Positions 12,997 through 21,780 of a stretch of DNA of 64,000 nucleotides are shown here, in pieces. The position numbers were made by a program, and so were the translations under genes. Within the stretch, counting starts at the first letter, position 1. Every line of letters starts with the position of its first letter. Source of the stretch: Opitutaceae bacterium (GTDB taxonomy: Bacteria; Verrucomicrobiota; Verrucomicrobiia; Opitutales; Opitutaceae); NCBI GenBank assembly GCA_028284385.1, contig JANQRT010000058.1, positions 124,001 through 188,000 on the forward strand, in the 5' to 3' direction. The notes under the pieces are model-generated. The model searched no databases and was not told the origin of the DNA. It saw only the letters and a program-made list of their open reading frames with translations.

Positions 12997-14361
12997 ATGA
13001 AAAGACGTCGATTTCTGGGCGCCGCAATCGCGGCAGGATTAGGCTCCTGCGTATCCGCTGGAGCAAGGCTATCCGCTATGCCTGTCGAACGGCTTAGTGC
13101 CATAGGAAAGGAAGGAAATATTGGCTTTGCCCGGACTTCACTGGAAGATCTGTTAGAGGATTGCCGCCTCCAACTGTTTGATCGCTATCTCCCGTTTTGG
13201 GAGCGTGGCGGTTTCGACGAGAGGAACGGCGGCGTCATGTGCTACCTTTATGATGACGGGTCGGTGGAAAATGATCGGAAGGACATTTGGTACCAGGGTC
13301 GAGCAATCTGGGTGTATTCATTTCTCTATAACAACATAGATCCCAATCCCAAGTGGCTGGAGATCGCTCGCAAATTGCGCGACTTCATGGTGGCCCATAT
13401 GCATCTTGGCGATGGGACCTGGCTCGATACGGTGGATCGTCTGGGCAACTCTACGGACAGCATTGCCATCGACCGTTCGAACAACATCTATGGAGCTTTG
13501 TTTGCCGCGTCCGGACTTGTCCAATACGCTAAAGCGACAAATAGCGAGGAGGATCTCGATTTGGCTAGACGCTCTATTCGCAAGGCGGTGGAGCGCTATG
13601 AGGATCCTCAACATCGAGGTATCGTTGCGCCAGGGTTAGACCTAGCCGGCCTTCGCGCTCAGGGCTGTTCGTTCATGATGGTCTGGCTGATTCCGCAACT
13701 CCTGGAACTCGATCGCGATCCATGGTTTGCATCACTGGTTAGCGAACATCTCGACCTTTTGGCTAACAAGTATTGGAATTCAGACTACGGCATCTCTAAC
13801 GAGATTCTCTTGCACGACTATTCGCGGCCATCTTCGCTAGCTGGCTGGATGGTTCCAGGGCATAGCATTGAAGCCCAGTGGATGGCCATGGCCGAAGCCC
13901 TTCGCGAAGGAAATACAGCACTTGCCGATCTGCTTAAGGAGCGGATGCGGCGTTTGATCGAGATGAGCTGGGATTACGTTTTCGACGGTACTTGCGATAC
14001 GGAGTATAATGTATTCGCTTCGGAAGGACATCCCGCTGGTCCGGCCTTGGGAATCAAGACCATGTGGGCTCAAACCGAAGTGTCGATTGGCTGTATGATG
14101 GCCTGGGAGCGTACGGGCGAGATTTGGGCCCAGGAGTGGTTCGAACGCAGTTGGCAGTTCCTACAACGAACCATGACCACCGGTCACGGAGTTTGGCGAC
14201 AAGCCGTTGACCGTCAGGGAAAGGATATGCAGCGACCGGGCATTTCGATTTATCGCAAAGGCAACTTCCACCAGCCCCGCTGTCTGATGATGCTGATTTT
14301 GATGCTCCAGCGTATCCTGGCTCGAGATGATGGATCGGCCGCTTCCTCCGGACTGGGCTGA
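12997..14361 (+). CDS. N-acylglucosamine 2-epimerase (AGE) family protein with Tat-type signal
   Basis: A 454-residue (alpha/alpha)6-barrel protein of the AGE/cellobiose-epimerase superfamily. Typical segments are RKDIWYQGRAIWVYSF near residue 90, the histidine-bearing GHSIEAQWMAMA near 288 and PGISIYRKGNFHQPRC near the end. AGE enzymes interconvert GlcNAc and ManNAc, or epimerise other reducing sugars. The N-terminus MKRRRFLGAAIAAGLGSC looks like a twin-arginine signal, perhaps with a lipobox ending at Cys18, suggesting export. nagA follows 11 bp after the stop. The exact sugar is not deducible. Confidence 0.85.
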   Translation: MKRRRFLGAAIAAGLGSCVSAGARLSAMPVERLSAIGKEGNIGFARTSLEDLLEDCRLQLFDRYLPFWERGGFDERNGGVMCYLYDDGSVENDRKDIWYQGRAIWVYSFLYNNIDPNPKWLEIARKLRDFMVAHMHLGDGTWLDTVDRLGNSTDSIAIDRSNNIYGALFAASGLVQYAKATNSEEDLDLARRSIRKAVERYEDPQHRGIVAPGLDLAGLRAQGCSFMMVWLIPQLLELDRDPWFASLVSEHLDLLANKYWNSDYGISNEILLHDYSRPSSLAGWMVPGHSIEAQWMAMAEALREGNTALADLLKERMRRLIEMSWDYVFDGTCDTEYNVFASEGHPAGPALGIKTMWAQTEVSIGCMMAWERTGEIWAQEWFERSWQFLQRTMTTGHGVWRQAVDRQGKDMQRPGISIYRKGNFHQPRCLMMLILMLQRILARDDGSAASSGLG

Positions 14362-14372
14362 TTGCGTCTGCT

Positions 14373-15320
14373 ATGGAAAACCTGGAAGCGACGAGTATTC
14401 CTTCTGAAGTCGAGCTATTCGATTTTCAAGTCAATGGCTTCGGCGGCGTCGATTTTCAATCCGAGTCGCTTGGGCTCGAAGAAATGAGACAGGCGGTTGA
14501 GGTCCTACATCGCCATCAGGTGAAGGCGATTCTCTTCACCCTTATTACCGATGACGTCGATGCCTTGTGTCGTAAGTTGGAATGTATCGAAAAACTGAGG
14601 GTGCAAGACGAACGTATTGCCGCTGCTGTTCCTGGCTATCATTTAGAGGGACCTTGGATTTCTTCCGAGTCTGGCTACCACGGAGCTCATCCGATAGAAC
14701 ACGTTCGGAAACCGTCGATTGGAGACTACAGACGTTTGCGCGACGCGGCGGGTGGCAATCTCAAGCTGATAACCTTGGCTCCCGAAGTGGAAGGATGCCT
14801 TTCGATTGTAGAGACGGCTGCGAAGGAAGGCATTCGTATTGGATTGGGCCATACGAATGCCTCTGAAGAAACGATCGACTTGGCTGTTCGAGCAGGGGCT
14901 ACGCTAGCAACGCATCTTGGAAATGCGGTGCCATCGCAACTTCCCCGGCACGACAATGTAGTCCAGCGCCTGCTCGCTCGTGACGAGCTGATTGCCTGTT
15001 TGATTCCCGATGGCATTCATCTGCCGCCCTTCGTTCTCAGGAATTTCTTTCGGGCGAAAAAGAAAGGTAGCGTATTTTTCACTACAGACTGTATGGCGGC
15101 GGCGGGAGCCCCGCCAGGACTGTATACGGTTGGCCCTCACTCCATGGAAGTCGGCGAGGATGGGGTTGTCCATTTGCCCGGCGACGATCGCTTCGCTGGC
15201 TCCTCACTCACTATGGATCGCGGCTTGGAGAACATCATGGCCTGGCTTTCGCTGGACAGGACGGATGCGGTAGGAATGTGCTCTACCTTGCCAGCCAAAC
15301 ACTTTGGAATCGATTTATAG
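14373..15320 (+). CDS. nagA: N-acetylglucosamine-6-phosphate deacetylase, compact form without the small beta-sandwich domain
   Basis: NagA converts GlcNAc-6-P to glucosamine-6-P and acetate. The TIM-barrel core is intact: FQVNGFGGVDF at 18-28, YHLEGPW with Glu92, GLGHTNAS with His160, ATHLGNA with His181, IPDGIHLP with His216 and catalytic Asp239 in TTDCMAAAG. The protein has only 315 residues against about 380 in E. coli. It lacks both the roughly 55 N-terminal and the roughly 40 C-terminal residues that normally form the beta-sandwich domain. nagB starts 9 bp later. Function by homology is sound; the trimmed architecture is unusual. Confidence 0.88.
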   Translation: MENLEATSIPSEVELFDFQVNGFGGVDFQSESLGLEEMRQAVEVLHRHQVKAILFTLITDDVDALCRKLECIEKLRVQDERIAAAVPGYHLEGPWISSESGYHGAHPIEHVRKPSIGDYRRLRDAAGGNLKLITLAPEVEGCLSIVETAAKEGIRIGLGHTNASEETIDLAVRAGATLATHLGNAVPSQLPRHDNVVQRLLARDELIACLIPDGIHLPPFVLRNFFRAKKKGSVFFTTDCMAAAGAPPGLYTVGPHSMEVGEDGVVHLPGDDRFAGSSLTMDRGLENIMAWLSLDRTDAVGMCSTLPAKHFGIDL

Positions 15321-15329
15321 AGGAACGTT

Positions 15330-16127
15330 ATGCACTCATCCCACTCCACGCCTTCTCCCGTCCAGGAATTCGCTTCGGACGCTCTGCAAGCGGCCGTGTT
15401 TGCCAACCGGCAAGACATGGGAAGAGCGGCTGCGGCCTATGTGGCTGAACATTTGCGTGAACTACAAGAAGATCGCGACGAGATTCGTATCGTTGTCGGT
15501 AGCGCGCCGTCGCAAGACGAATTTTTCGAGCATCTGACCACATCGCCTTTGAGCGAGACTCTGGACTGGAAGAAGGTCGTGGCGTTTCACATGGACGAAT
15601 ACATCGGTCTTGCGGCCGAGAATTCGCAGAGCTTTCGAGCCTATCAGTTCGAGCATTTCGTTTCGAAAGTGCCGCTAAAAGGATTTCATCAGATCCGAGG
15701 AGAAGCGGCGGATCACGAGAAGGAATGTCGTCGCCTAAGCGACTTGCTCGCGGAACGACCAATCGAGCTGGTTTGCTGTGGCATTGGGGAGAACGGGCAC
15801 CTGGCCTTCAACGATCCTCCCGTCGCTGATTTCGAGGATCCAGAGTGGGTTAAGATCGTTGAGCTGGACGATGTTTGTCGTCAACAGCAGGTGAACGACG
15901 GGTGCTTCCCTTCGATAGATGCTGTTCCGTCTCATGCCATTACCTTGACCCTGCGGGTTTTTGTCAGCGCGGCGAAGCTGAGTTGCGTTGTTCCAGCAAC
16001 GACTAAAGCGAAGGCCGTAGCCGCGACGATCAACGGGCCTATTTCAACAGCCTGTCCGGCTACCCTGATGCGTCGCCATCCGGATGCTCGCCTTTTCCTC
16101 GATCCCGACTCGGCCGCTTTGCTGTGA
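15330..16127 (+). CDS. nagB: Glucosamine-6-phosphate deaminase
   Basis: NagB isomerises and deaminates glucosamine-6-P to fructose-6-P and ammonia, the last step of amino-sugar entry into glycolysis. At 265 residues it has the family length. Signatures are AFHMDEYIGL (catalytic Asp) near residue 88, the HisGlyHis-like segment GIGENGHLAFNDPP near 151, and VNDGCFPSIDAVPSHAITLT near 190. It is the third gene of the AGE-nagA-nagB unit and is convergent with the symporter gene. Confidence 0.94.
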   Translation: MHSSHSTPSPVQEFASDALQAAVFANRQDMGRAAAAYVAEHLRELQEDRDEIRIVVGSAPSQDEFFEHLTTSPLSETLDWKKVVAFHMDEYIGLAAENSQSFRAYQFEHFVSKVPLKGFHQIRGEAADHEKECRRLSDLLAERPIELVCCGIGENGHLAFNDPPVADFEDPEWVKIVELDDVCRQQQVNDGCFPSIDAVPSHAITLTLRVFVSAAKLSCVVPATTKAKAVAATINGPISTACPATLMRRHPDARLFLDPDSAALL

Positions 16128-16207
16128 AAGTTTTCCGCTATTCGTGCCCATTCGTCGCTTCCAAAAACTCGCCACTCTTGTGACCGACGAAATGAGGCTT
16201 GTATCGT

Positions 16208-17914
16208 CTACACTCTGGAAATCCAGTAGACGGATAGAATGATTGCCGCGACACAGGCCCATCCAGCGGCGAAGCCGGTAATCGAGCGTTTGGAAGGAAT
16301 GCCGATTTCCAATTCCGTATTTGGAAAGAGAACACGCCGCGGGAGCGTTTGGGCTCTGTCTGGGAGTGTGCAGGGTTCCTTGAGATTCGGCTCTTCCTCG
16401 ATGACGGGAGTACGCAGGAGCGTGTAGAAACGCTCGAGTTTTGTAGACTCTGTTCGGCGAGTCATGAGACTGATGAAAAAGCCAGCGGCGAAGCCCACCG
16501 TCAGATAGAATATCATCTGCCAGGGAAGGCTAATGGCTGTCTCGCCGCTTGAACGATCGAGAAGGCGAAGGGTGTCGGCTCTTGGCATTTCGGAAATCCA
16601 TCGGACGAAAAAGCTTTGCGAACTGATCCACCATGCAACGAGAGCGCTCAAAGTGGAAGCCCATGCGGCAGCTGGCGTTGTTCGTCGCCAGAAGAGACCC
16701 ATCCAAAAGGCGATTCCCATCATCGACGCGATTTTCCACAGGATCTCTAGCCCCTGGACTACGCCAGAAAGCCAATAGGCGTAGACGACACCCAGAGCGA
16801 CAACGCCTACCGAAGCCAATCTAGCAGCCCAGAGATAGTGTCGATCACTCTCTTTTGGCTTCGCTAGTTTGTAAACGTTCCGCGTGAAAAGAGCGGAAGC
16901 CGCGATCATGAAGGAATCGCAGGAGCTCATAACAGAGGCTAACAGGGTGGCGATGAAAAGACCCAGAGCTCCTGGAAGTATTTGGGGTAGGAATTCATTT
17001 GCTAGCATTCCGTAGAGGTTATCGGGGTCAATGTCCTGGCCGATGTAGAAAGCTACGCCAGCAAGGCCAGTCAAACACCACGCTACGGTGCAAATACGTT
17101 TAGTTAAGCTTCCCACCATGAAACCGAACTGACCGTCTTGCTCTGTTCGGCCAGCGGCGCAATTGGCTAGGATATGTGGCTGGGTGACGATGCCGATGAG
17201 CGCGTTAATAGAGATCACGATTATGTAGAAGACGCCGATCCCTGCTGGGGCGGCGAGGGAGAACATTTCCGAGTTGGCGATCGTCGTTCGCATGCCATCA
17301 AGCCCGCCTACGGCACCTAGTACGAAGGGTAGTAGGAGGAAAGAGAATACGATGGTAAGGATGCCTTGAACAAAGTCGGTGACAATGGCCGCTCCCAAAC
17401 CGCCTGCCGTTCCGTAGGCTACGAAAAGAACGGTCATGAAAAGGATGGCAGTATCGGAAGAGATGCATCCTCCGCTCGCTCCGGCAATGACCGCCCCCGA
17501 ACCTTTCAGCATCAGTCCAATGGTGGTGATCATCATTGCAATGCTGATGATGGCGTAGAGCATAGCCACGCTTCGGTTGTAGCGGAGCTCGAAAATGTCG
17601 GCTGTGGTCAGGGCCCTGAAGCGTCGCATCATGGGAGCGATGAGCCAGTAAAAGGGCGTTCCGAACAAGTAGAGCCATTGGTACCAGATACCAGAAAGCC
17701 CGCTTATGTAGGTTTTGGAGGCTACGCCGACTGCTTGGTCGGAATGCGTACCGCTGCCGAAGGCGTGCATGGTCAGCATCCATTTGCCGAAACGGCGAGG
17801 CATAATGAAATCGCTCATGCCTCCTATCTTCTTCATGGCCAGGATGCCCAGGAAAGTAACGCCGACGAGATATACGACGAGGACGAGAATATCGATAACG
17901 CTGATGCCTAGCAT
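16208..17914 (-). CDS. Sodium:solute symporter (SSS family)
   Basis: A polytopic inner-membrane symporter of 568 residues with roughly 13-14 hydrophobic helices. The SSS-type motifs include GVASKTYISGLSGIWYQW near 60 and the ATLLASVMSSCDSFMIAASA stretch near 325 (the Na+-site helix region). Solute is likely a sugar, uronate or sialic-acid-like compound given the neighbouring uxuA and nag genes, but this is inference from context. It is transcribed toward nagB; a promoter should lie in 17915-18205. Confidence 0.9.
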   Translation of the reverse strand: MLGISVIDILVLVVYLVGVTFLGILAMKKIGGMSDFIMPRRFGKWMLTMHAFGSGTHSDQAVGVASKTYISGLSGIWYQWLYLFGTPFYWLIAPMMRRFRALTTADIFELRYNRSVAMLYAIISIAMMITTIGLMLKGSGAVIAGASGGCISSDTAILFMTVLFVAYGTAGGLGAAIVTDFVQGILTIVFSFLLLPFVLGAVGGLDGMRTTIANSEMFSLAAPAGIGVFYIIVISINALIGIVTQPHILANCAAGRTEQDGQFGFMVGSLTKRICTVAWCLTGLAGVAFYIGQDIDPDNLYGMLANEFLPQILPGALGLFIATLLASVMSSCDSFMIAASALFTRNVYKLAKPKESDRHYLWAARLASVGVVALGVVYAYWLSGVVQGLEILWKIASMMGIAFWMGLFWRRTTPAAAWASTLSALVAWWISSQSFFVRWISEMPRADTLRLLDRSSGETAISLPWQMIFYLTVGFAAGFFISLMTRRTESTKLERFYTLLRTPVIEEEPNLKEPCTLPDRAQTLPRRVLFPNTELEIGIPSKRSITGFAAGWACVAAIILSVYWISRV

Positions 17915-18205: not shown

Positions 18206-18281
<76 letters not shown>

Positions 18282-18711
18282 GTCAGTGAAACAGTTGAAA
18301 AAAGATGGAGGTTGCGAGAGCAAGATCAAGCTTTCGTTTTATACGAAAACCTTGGTTCAGTCACTATTCCTTCATGAGATTAACCAAGCCGTCGATTGAA
18401 GCCAGAGCAGCTCCTGATGAAAGTTGACAACCTCCTTTGCCCTTCAGAGAAAGCCCTTTCCCGGTGCTGCTAGCCTTCTAGAAAGAGTGGATGTAAGTCA
18501 AACCCAGCCTCTTGATCCTTCTCCAACAAACGCCCCGCTCTAGCAATTTGCTTTTCCAGTTTAGGAACCAATTCTTTAGAGATGGGAGCGGTTTTATCTT
18601 TTTCCTTTTCCGTCGCAATAGCTTGATTCTCGTATTTGCTGCAGGACAACTCCGTGGATCCTATCTTAGGAAGATTCGCTCATTTATATGGAAAACTTCG
18701 ATAATAGTCCA
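18282..18711. other. Low-gene-density region right of the tRNA
   Basis: These 430 bases between the tRNA and the receptor-like gene hold no well-supported gene. One minus-strand frame (open 18679 to 18470) reads like real protein and is listed separately. Otherwise I see stop-rich, AT-leaning sequence consistent with decayed or acquired DNA. Confidence 0.5.
18470..18649 (-). pseudogene. Possible small or decayed reading frame downstream of the receptor gene
   Basis: The minus strand is open from 18679 to the TAG at 18470-18472. It has no ATG; the only usable start is a TTG at 18649, giving about 59 residues. The translated text is strongly hydrophilic, with charged stretches such as ATEKEKDKTA and KELVPKLEKQIARAG, and looks more like protein than random sequence. 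It could be the tail of a broken lipoprotein gene (a Cys follows LS near its beginning) or a small gene coupled to the receptor. I cannot assign a family. Confidence 0.25.
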
Positions 18712-20952
18712 CTAGTGATTTCGTTTGCTATCTTCACCTCTCGCCAGAGCCGTTTCGCTAGTATCATCTCTCAAACGATCACTTGCTATCTTTTTACTGG
18801 CTCGCTCTTTTTTAACTCCTGCTTTGGCTGGCTCAGAAGGTCTAGCTTTGACTCCAGAATCGCCTTCCTCATCTGGTAGCAGGTTCTTGCTAATCAACAC
18901 TCGCTTAGTTGCTTTCAAGTCCCATACAAAAAAAGACACTTGTTTGTAAATGAGATCTCGCGAGCCTTCCTCATCTGTTTTAATTTTATTGTACTTATTT
19001 TTCAGATACTGGGAGTGATTCTCTAGAGTTTCTTCGATCGCTTTGACGAGAAGCGTATTTCGAGCAGGATCTTGAATCAGAAAATTCACACATTCCCGAA
19101 TTCGTTTATCCGGTCCTACGATATCCTCGTCCTTGTTCAAGTGATTGGGGATCAACCCCCTGTCCTGAAGTGTTTCCCACCCCAGTCGCTTTAGCAGCAT
19201 AGCGGCATACACCTTTCTTCTTTCAAGCGATTCCTCGCAGGCTTCTAGCTGCCTTTTCAACTCTCGTTCGTTTCTTGCTTGCTGTTCGGAGGTCCTGTAG
19301 TTGCTGAACAATCCATGGAGTTCCTTTTTAAGGTCATCTTCATAGTTTCTCTGAGCGATGACATTAACCAATACGTGCAAATTTGAATACCGCTCAACCA
19401 TAAGTCGATCATTGATTTTTTGCAGCAACATGTCGTAGAGCTGAATCAACCCGACCCAGGTTGTTCCCTTCGTGGACTGAACCAAATTAGACCTCAATAT
19501 GATCGAGGGAGAAGACGCCAAAGCCATTGTAATTAAAAAATTGTTACAGGGAAGGTTTTGAGCCAAGGCTAGATAGATGAATAGAATAATTGAAACAAAT
19601 AATTGCAAGGAAAGTAGGAGAATGTAGCCTTTCGATCGCAAGGCATCCTGCCAGCTCCCATCGTACCAACGCGACAGGTCCAACACTGTCATACAGGCAG
19701 CAACCAAGAAAATAAGAGTGAAGTTAATGACCATAGTCGCAGTGCCAAACCGCTTAAAGAGAAGATCAAACTTGAACCAAAACTTGTGCAAAAAGCTCAT
19801 GTCGCTTTTCATCTCGTGGAGCTTCCAATGACCGCCCTCTATCTCGTAAACAATCAGGGGAGACGAGTTCGCCAGTTCAGAAAACTTCATTTCGGTTTTG
19901 GGCCCTCTTTTTTCAACACCGCCATCCATTAGCGTCTCGAAGTAGTCTCTAAAATTCCTTCGAAACACTGCACGATTTTTGGCGTCAATCGCATTTAACT
20001 CTGAACACTGGTGCAGAACAAAATACATCGTGTCGTAAGCCAATCCTCGGACATCATCGTAAAGCCCTTTCCCCGCTTCAGATTCTGGCATTGGCTTTGT
20101 CGCGGAAACACTATAGATGTGGTCTACTTCATCTTTGATTTGGCGGGCATCGAGATTCGTGAAAATCAAAGGCTCGTAATCAGAGTCCTTCTTCTCCATA
20201 TTATCAATCTCATTAAGAATGGCTGAAATTTGATGCCTTTCGGCAAAGATACCCAAGGCCTCTGGCCGATTCGACAAGATTTCGGAGAGACTATCTCTCA
20301 GGTCTAACATAGGATCGTATTTGTAGGCAAAGTACGCATCGCTATCTCCGAACTCGCGTATAACCTCCTTGCGAAACGCTTCTTCTCCACGACGGCCGAA
20401 CTCGGTGTCAGCATGCAAAATGGCAAAGGATCGTATCCAGTGCTTTCTGAGGAAGTCGTAGATCATATGCGACCGCTTGGTCACGCCAACATTTGTTCTG
20501 AAAAACCAGTCAGAGCCGTCGAGATCCATATCTGCTGTTGCAAGTGGCGAGATGATAGGAACCTCAAAATTAGAAAACTCCTCCTTTTCTTCAAATGCGC
20601 GTGCAAAAAGATCGCTATCTGTGGGGCCAATCACAATATCGATATGTTGATTTCTTAGGGCTTCTCGGAGTCGAACAACACCTTTGCCTGGACTGGTATA
20701 GCTCAAGTCCACGATGCAAGCCTTCACTCCACTCTCGTGTATCGAATCCTCCAATGCTTCGTTGAGCCCCATTCTCATTTTTCGATGAGCGGGTACATCC
20801 AGGTATAAGGCTCCAATGCGAATGCAATTCTCCTCCTCGCTTTTGCAGGCATGGGTGATGCGCATCGCATCATTACTGACCTGAGCAAAGCCTGCTAAAA
20901 AAACGGTTGTCGAGAGAGAAAGAATACCGATGCGAAAAGCCTTCAGACGCAT
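18712..20952 (-). CDS. Receptor-like protein: periplasmic-binding-protein domain, membrane segments, cytoplasmic coiled-coil region
   Basis: A 746-residue protein whose overall architecture I do not recognise. A signal or anchor (1-23) is followed by a type-1 periplasmic-binding fold (about 45-385) like branched-chain amino-acid binding proteins and receptor ligand domains: IDIVIGPTDS at 104-113, PIISPLATAD at 132-141, WFFRTNVG at 149-156 and AILHADTEFGRRG at 177-189. Hydrophobic segments lie near 403-425, 443-464 and perhaps 468-488. Residues 500-695 are charged with coiled-coil character (EQQARNERELKRQLEACEES), and the end is basic. No kinase, cyclase, GGDEF or methyl-accepting motif is visible. 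A GGAAG ribosome-binding site precedes the ATG. It lies alone between a tRNA and a tRNA-like relic. Confidence 0.8.
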   Translation of the reverse strand: MRLKAFRIGILSLSTTVFLAGFAQVSNDAMRITHACKSEEENCIRIGALYLDVPAHRKMRMGLNEALEDSIHESGVKACIVDLSYTSPGKGVVRLREALRNQHIDIVIGPTDSDLFARAFEEKEEFSNFEVPIISPLATADMDLDGSDWFFRTNVGVTKRSHMIYDFLRKHWIRSFAILHADTEFGRRGEEAFRKEVIREFGDSDAYFAYKYDPMLDLRDSLSEILSNRPEALGIFAERHQISAILNEIDNMEKKDSDYEPLIFTNLDARQIKDEVDHIYSVSATKPMPESEAGKGLYDDVRGLAYDTMYFVLHQCSELNAIDAKNRAVFRRNFRDYFETLMDGGVEKRGPKTEMKFSELANSSPLIVYEIEGGHWKLHEMKSDMSFLHKFWFKFDLLFKRFGTATMVINFTLIFLVAACMTVLDLSRWYDGSWQDALRSKGYILLLSLQLFVSIILFIYLALAQNLPCNNFLITMALASSPSIILRSNLVQSTKGTTWVGLIQLYDMLLQKINDRLMVERYSNLHVLVNVIAQRNYEDDLKKELHGLFSNYRTSEQQARNERELKRQLEACEESLERRKVYAAMLLKRLGWETLQDRGLIPNHLNKDEDIVGPDKRIRECVNFLIQDPARNTLLVKAIEETLENHSQYLKNKYNKIKTDEEGSRDLIYKQVSFFVWDLKATKRVLISKNLLPDEEGDSGVKARPSEPAKAGVKKERASKKIASDRLRDDTSETALARGEDSKRNH

Positions 20953-21339
20953 TTTCTTCCGAGGGGGTGAGTTGGAGTTGGGGTATAAAACTCAATACAG
21001 CCTCTGTAAGGGTGACAGCTCTATCGAGTTCCGAAAGATCAAATAAATAATTATTCGAGCATTTAAATAGATGACAATATGAAATCGTATGCAAGCACTT
21101 TGGCATTATTCGCTAGACTGACCTCATTCAATTCGAACTATTCACATGAGAACGTTAACCTTCACCTTCTCATGAAATCTGCTCAATCCAGTCTAAATTC
21201 GATTACTTTTTATTCCCTTTTAGTTGTTCCTCTTCTTAACCATAAAGCCATCGGCCAGTGTCCATAGTTGAACATCAGTCCGATGAGGTGTTCGAATAGA
21301 GGATCGGTATCCTACAAGGTAGAGAAAGGTCCAAGGGTA

Positions 21340-21519
21340 ATGACGACTTTTCGGCAATCTTTTGGCGTCTACTATGATATCGAAAACCGATGCCTCTCCA
21401 TCGCTCTCGAGGTTCGAGACTATTTGCAAAAAGATGAATTAGACGCTCGGGATACTGAGAGGATGGTCCTTTTCATCATTTCCGTTGCACGTGCTCACTT
21501 CGCTTCTGCGTGTGACTAA
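21340..21519 (+). CDS. Possible small hypothetical protein
   Basis: A 59-residue frame starting MTTFRQSFGVYYD and ending AHFASACD, with an AAGGG sequence a few bases before the ATG. The mixed charged and hydrophobic pattern (IALEVRDYLQKDELDARDTE) is protein-like, but there is no recognisable domain, and an overlapping minus-strand frame of similar length exists. It is reported as a candidate only. Confidence 0.25.
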   Translation: MTTFRQSFGVYYDIENRCLSIALEVRDYLQKDELDARDTERMVLFIISVARAHFASACD

Positions 21520-21730
21520 ACATCTCTCTTCGTCGACATCCACTATTTTATTCGGTATTTGAATACAGCATAGATTTGTAACCCTAGGCCAAAATTTGGG
21601 AAATTTAAGCTAATACAAGATCACTGTAACAAGCTTGTAACTCCAGATAAGGTGGCTCGATTTCAGATTAAATAAGCTAACATTAGCTAGCTACCATTAT
21701 GATTCTGTATATTGTTTACTCCGCAATCAA

Positions 21731-21780
21731 AAGGTGTCAGCTACTGGGACCTCGAAACAACCACTGAGCTACAGCCCCGT
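21731..21780 (-). pseudogene. tRNA-like relic
   Basis: On the minus strand this reads GGGGCTGTAGCTCAGTGGTT followed almost directly by a T-arm-like TTTCGAGGTCCC. The D-arm part matches the tRNA at 18206-18281 over 22 bases with one difference. The anticodon arm is missing and the acceptor ends do not pair, so it is not a functional tRNA. It may be a deleted tRNA copy or the scar of an integration or recombination event. Confidence 0.45.

Follow-up and report, generated by a model that had tools for sequence, protein, structure and literature searches.

Substrate-binding proteins of the ABC type for branched-chain amino acids (LIV-BP/HAAT, Peripla_BP_6) have the same fold as residues 42-384 of the protein considered here, and share with it the GPxxS and SPxAT motifs, Ser113 and Thr139. 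Class C GPCRs, natriuretic peptide receptors and Venus kinase receptors are likewise built from an extracellular Venus flytrap, membrane helices and an internal output; the Venus kinase receptors are described in two publications (PMC2680970, PMC4026697). In a 64,000-nucleotide stretch of DNA from an Opitutaceae bacterium (contig JANQRT010000058.1, referred to as the window), a protein of 746 amino acids (746-aa protein) is encoded, for which a sensor fold, a membrane anchor of at least two helices, a helical extension in the same frame and a location in an islet are established. It is proposed, with a probability of about 0.5, that it is a recently acquired orphan inner-membrane flytrap receptor signalling by contact with a bound partner protein.

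The reading frame and its sensor domain

The frame listed in the initial annotation at 18712-20952 is present on the minus strand, where 746 codons run without interruption and carry an in-frame coding signal as far as about residue 675. With the codon usage of the other window genes as the yardstick and the frame divided into ten consecutive 75-codon blocks, frame +0 scored highest in nine blocks, and only in the last one (residues 676-746) was the coding signal weak. Because of this in-frame signal, a codon usage ordinary for the window and the GGAAG upstream of the ATG, the frame is a real gene. A chance frame is ruled out by the in-frame signal, and so is a fusion artefact, which the initial annotation had named as a way in which it could fail and which was checked block by block. 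The gene and the parts of its product are as follows.

18712..20952, minus strand: 746-aa open reading frame, PBP1 membrane receptor-like protein; coding signal in frame over residues 1-675, host-like codon usage
20956..20960, minus strand: Shine-Dalgarno-like GGAAG just 5' of the ATG (sequence)
21050..21077, minus strand: possible sigma-70-type promoter, TTGTCA-16-AATAAT; such sites are no commoner than in shuffles
20881..20952, minus strand: signal peptide predicted over residues 1-24, signal peptidase I-like, without a visible lipobox (hydrophobic segment 3-26; cleavage site predicted from sequence)
19801..20829, minus strand: type-1 periplasmic-binding (Venus flytrap) domain, residues 42-384 (Peripla_BP_6, tblastn, VIA Z 17.3)
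19681..19749, minus strand: transmembrane helix 1, residues 402-424 (hydropathy and octanol scale)
19558..19629, minus strand: transmembrane helix 2, residues 442-465 (octanol sum -16.8)
19480..19539, minus strand: marginal third membrane segment, residues 472-491 (octanol sum -3.6; proline and arginine inside)
18883..19467, minus strand: charged region predicted to be helical, residues 496-690, heptad-like at about 537-592 (no domain above controls)
18715..18867, minus strand: low-complexity charged tail, residues 696-746 (sequence; weak coding signal; pLDDT about 30)

The initial annotation had recognised a type-1 periplasmic-binding (PBP1) domain; it is a divergent one, spans residues 42-384 and has the LIV-BP/class C receptor fold. 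In Pfam, Peripla_BP_6 matched residues 87-197 with E 9.8e-5 (22.6 bits against a curated cut-off of 31.7) and ANF_receptor matched the same residues with E 0.0024, also under its curated cut-off. The tblastn search found LIV-BP-type proteins in Acetobacteraceae and further Alphaproteobacteria (E 2e-6 to 5e-5) aligned over up to residues 40-251, and the alignment with them shows no variation at Gly109, Ser113, the PxISPxATA motif or Thr139. The second lobe of the flytrap was not detected by sequence alone. The AlphaFold model of the whole protein, built from seven aligned sequences with PBP relatives among them, has a low overall confidence (mean pLDDT 52) and gives the sensor part as an alternating beta/alpha domain. 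Compared by VIA-align, the modelled residues 42-384 matched the branched-chain amino acid binding protein 3hut with Z 17.3 (4.0 A, 273 residues aligned), so that a two-lobed PBP1 fold extends over about 340 residues, in a model of low pLDDT with PBP homologues in its input alignment; the flytrap domains of GABA-B, mGlu and glutamate receptors were also among the best fold matches. Since Ser113 and Thr139 of the first lobe are kept, an amino-acid-like ligand may be possible, judging from the sequence. For the ligand-sensing membrane protein of the initial annotation, the sensor fold and the membrane anchor stand, while ligand binding is a step that we infer.

Within the order, significant relatives of the PBP domain were limited to a short stretch of a regulator-like protein that has a periplasmic-binding-type domain, and to the PBP domain of a larger fusion, the nearest relative. 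The latter is encoded by an uncultured Opitutae bacterium (CAJWYM010000026.1, L074:1137-4508 and also L084:5653-9024) and consists, over 1124 aa, of PBP1, membrane helices, an MscS beta-domain and a cyclic-nucleotide-binding domain; from these domains it is apparently a doubly ligand-gated channel of the MscS type. PBP frames of two other genomes (G194 and G091) turned out to be ordinary sugar-binding-type proteins, and that of a third (G144) a different fusion, another unusual one in the order, in which a CxxCH haem-binding-type motif is followed by a divergent Peripla_BP_6-like domain (L078:1890-3500).

Membrane segments and the C-terminal part

The two or three membrane helices announced in the initial annotation resolve, by hydropathy and the octanol scale, into two clear ones and a weak third. 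The side on which the C-terminal part lies hinges on the third: with three helices it is cytoplasmic, with two it is periplasmic, on the side of the sensor. The counts and distribution of charges lean to three helices with the C-terminus inside, whereas in that arrangement the basic stretch 385-401, a basic aromatic helix directly before transmembrane helix 1, faces the periplasm, against the positive-inside tendency. Cysteines occur in both the sensor and the C-terminal parts and do not decide the side. The charged coiled-coil cytoplasmic part described in the initial annotation is charged and predicted to be helical, but its cytoplasmic side is unproven, as it rests on the marginal third helix. 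If the anchor were a hairpin of the two strong helices, with the proline-containing segment 472-491 outside the membrane, then flytrap and coiled coil would both be periplasmic and the protein would be an envelope scaffold or a binding protein sending no signal inwards. Against the charge counts favouring three helices, this arrangement appears improbable.

No named output domain (kinase, GGDEF, cyclase, MCP) was found in the C-terminal part, and no catalytic domain in the whole protein, by Pfam, NCBIfam, PADLOC or PHROGs. At the sensitivity available, this agrees with the initial annotation, which a C-terminal match to a named signalling domain of the same architecture would have refuted. DUF6853 (PF21593) matched with E 0.0019 for the whole protein and 1.4e-4 for the fragment (19-22.7 bits), below its curated cut-off of 27, and was rejected as the C-terminal identity, controls scoring alike with other families (reversed fragment E 8.5e-4, shuffle 3.2e-3). 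A very weak match of S_4TM over the membrane part (fragment E 0.014) was at the control level and likewise was not accepted as a domain identity. A separate structural check of the two halves had been suggested; the sensor matches PBP1 folds as described, but the unaided single-sequence model of the C-terminal part (pLDDT 48) was too poor for a fold search and gave no Foldseek match below E 0.7.

One of the mechanisms by which such a protein might act is as a ligand-gated pore, the flytrap gating a channel that the protein's membrane helices would form by oligomerising, after the pattern of the order's PBP1-MscS fusion. It is supported by that fusion, in which the nearest PBP relative (L074/L084) is joined to MscS and cNMP-binding domains, and by the same N-terminal fold in eukaryotic glutamate receptors. 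However, no MscS, potassium-channel, pLGIC or glutamate-channel domain was found by Pfam, and two or three helices lacking a recognisable pore motif make a pore an unlikely reading. It is similarly doubtful that the membrane segment and the C-terminal 250 residues form a genuinely new receptor output module, more widespread beyond the genomes searched; if they did, it would be a helical transducer that binds a partner, or else a small pore. As a conserved entity, the new intracellular domain suggested in the initial annotation is unsupported, since neither the membrane part nor the C-terminal part yielded a homologue in the searches.

Search for relatives and the tRNA-Met islet

No full-protein homologue was found in the genomes of 57 relatives, all 252 available members of the family, or the samples of 273 from the order and 286 from the class; the last three sets also contained no homologue spanning the PBP, membrane and C-terminal parts. 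The tblastn search of plasmids and phages found no homologue, and no relative came from PBP-motif scans of viral contigs or from exact-peptide scans of viral and GTDB contigs, a method reaching close relatives only. In 387 genomes of the phylum, the C-terminal half had marginal matches only; the four inspected were unrelated proteins (trigger factor-like and ABC permease-like ones among the weak matches), and the rest scored lower. The conserved family of three-part layout, which would have spoken for the initial annotation, was thus not seen in the genomes, plasmids, phages and contigs searched. Because the whole protein has no relative in any collection searched, it is, on sequence comparison, a one-off in one genome and not a new protein family.

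The gene lies in a GC-poor islet at a tRNA gene, the features of which are the following.

18282..21780, no strand: GC-poor islet of about 3.5 kb, single recognisable gene, no integrase (GC; absent from the syntenic locus of G001)
18206..18281, minus strand: tRNA-Met (CAT), near edge of the islet (Rfam 72.8 bits)
18262..18283, minus strand: repeat copy 1, tRNA-Met 5' end (repeat comparison)
21759..21780, minus strand: repeat copy 2 at the islet's far edge, a partial tRNA-Met 5' end matching in 21/22 positions (repeat comparison)

The tRNA-Met lies 430 bp downstream of the gene; other Rfam matches were all below gathering scores. The accessory origin, which had been suggested from the position beside a tRNA, is borne out by the GC content (0.42-0.47 in the islet, about 0.52 in the window genes), the 22-bp repeat and an empty site. 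The repeat occurs at only these two places in the 5.39-Mb genome at up to 2 mismatches. In a sister species of the same genus (G001), the symporter (91% DNA identity) and OsmC flank the tRNA-Met and the 746-aa gene is absent; in a genome of another genus (G009), tRNA-Met adjoins OsmC in the orientation of the window. Two features expected of tRNA-associated islets were found, a partial copy of the tRNA at the far edge and an empty site in a relative; the empty site is stronger evidence of accessory origin than tRNA proximity alone. Integration more usually duplicates the 3' end of a tRNA, whereas the repeat of the islet covers the 5' end. In G001 (L019:2847-3100), the tRNA-Met has the opposite orientation to that in the window, and an exact 21-bp duplicate of its 3' end lies 176 bp away; therefore the locus has probably recombined more than once.

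No integrase and no other frame of gene length are present in 18282-21780. A plus-strand frame at 21268-21519 (83 aa, TTG start) could be either a gene or a chance frame; its tested part, 21340-21516, matched nothing in Pfam. The neighbours of the islet gene are a sodium:solute symporter and OsmC; neither ABC permease or ATPase genes nor an evident partner gene are found beside it. An amino-sugar cluster at 12997-17914 comprises a GlcNAc 2-epimerase-like, a NagA-like (no Pfam match at 1e-3), a glucosamine-6-phosphate isomerase and a sodium:solute symporter gene.

The location in an accessory islet at a tRNA gene, together with the S_4TM effector match, could suggest a membrane effector of a defence or conflict system sensing a released small molecule. 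This is very improbable, as there is no PADLOC match, no defence gene in the islet and an S_4TM score no better than controls. Another debatable issue is whether the gene has a function at all. A binding-protein gene that was captured and given a new C-terminal extension, freshly assembled and under little or no selection, would account for the very divergent PBP domain, the lone gene lacking an integrase and the want of homologues in every collection searched. The 746 codons are nevertheless intact, with a coding signal across the membrane and helical parts and ordinary host codon usage, and there is only a small chance that this account is correct.

Proposed function and comparison with known systems

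In the orphan receptor reading, the secreted N-terminal flytrap would bind a small molecule and close, probably as a dimer, and closure would shift the membrane helices. The movement might then pass through the coiled coil to a helical surface, putatively cytoplasmic, which would work through contact with a partner protein from a separate gene; partner binding is proposed because this surface lacks a catalytic signature. The receptor reading is supported by the occurrence in the order of a PBP1-to-membrane-output fusion, the nearest sensor relative being joined to an MscS channel. Against it counts that neither conservation of the architecture nor selection on it is borne out by any homologue.

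The LIV-BP/HAAT proteins found are soluble and free of membrane helices, whereas the 746-aa protein is anchored, carries a 250-aa extension and has no ABC transporter genes next to it. The class C GPCRs, natriuretic peptide receptors and Venus kinase receptors have 7TM, cyclase or kinase outputs; the present protein has two or three helices, and no output was recognised in it. The PBP1-MscS-cNMP fusion also combines a flytrap with a membrane output, but its MscS and cyclic-nucleotide-binding domains are identifiable and no similarity to the 746-aa protein was detected past the PBP domain; it is arguably of greater interest than the 746-aa receptor. If the latter is functional, then it would add to bacterial sensing a flytrap receptor with no catalytic output and would be a test case for the fitting of flytrap sensors to new membrane parts. 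Standing alone, it belongs to a known kind, the Venus-flytrap membrane proteins, and is of modest interest; the broader point is that Venus-flytrap sensors of this order are fused to membrane outputs, the MscS-type channel included.
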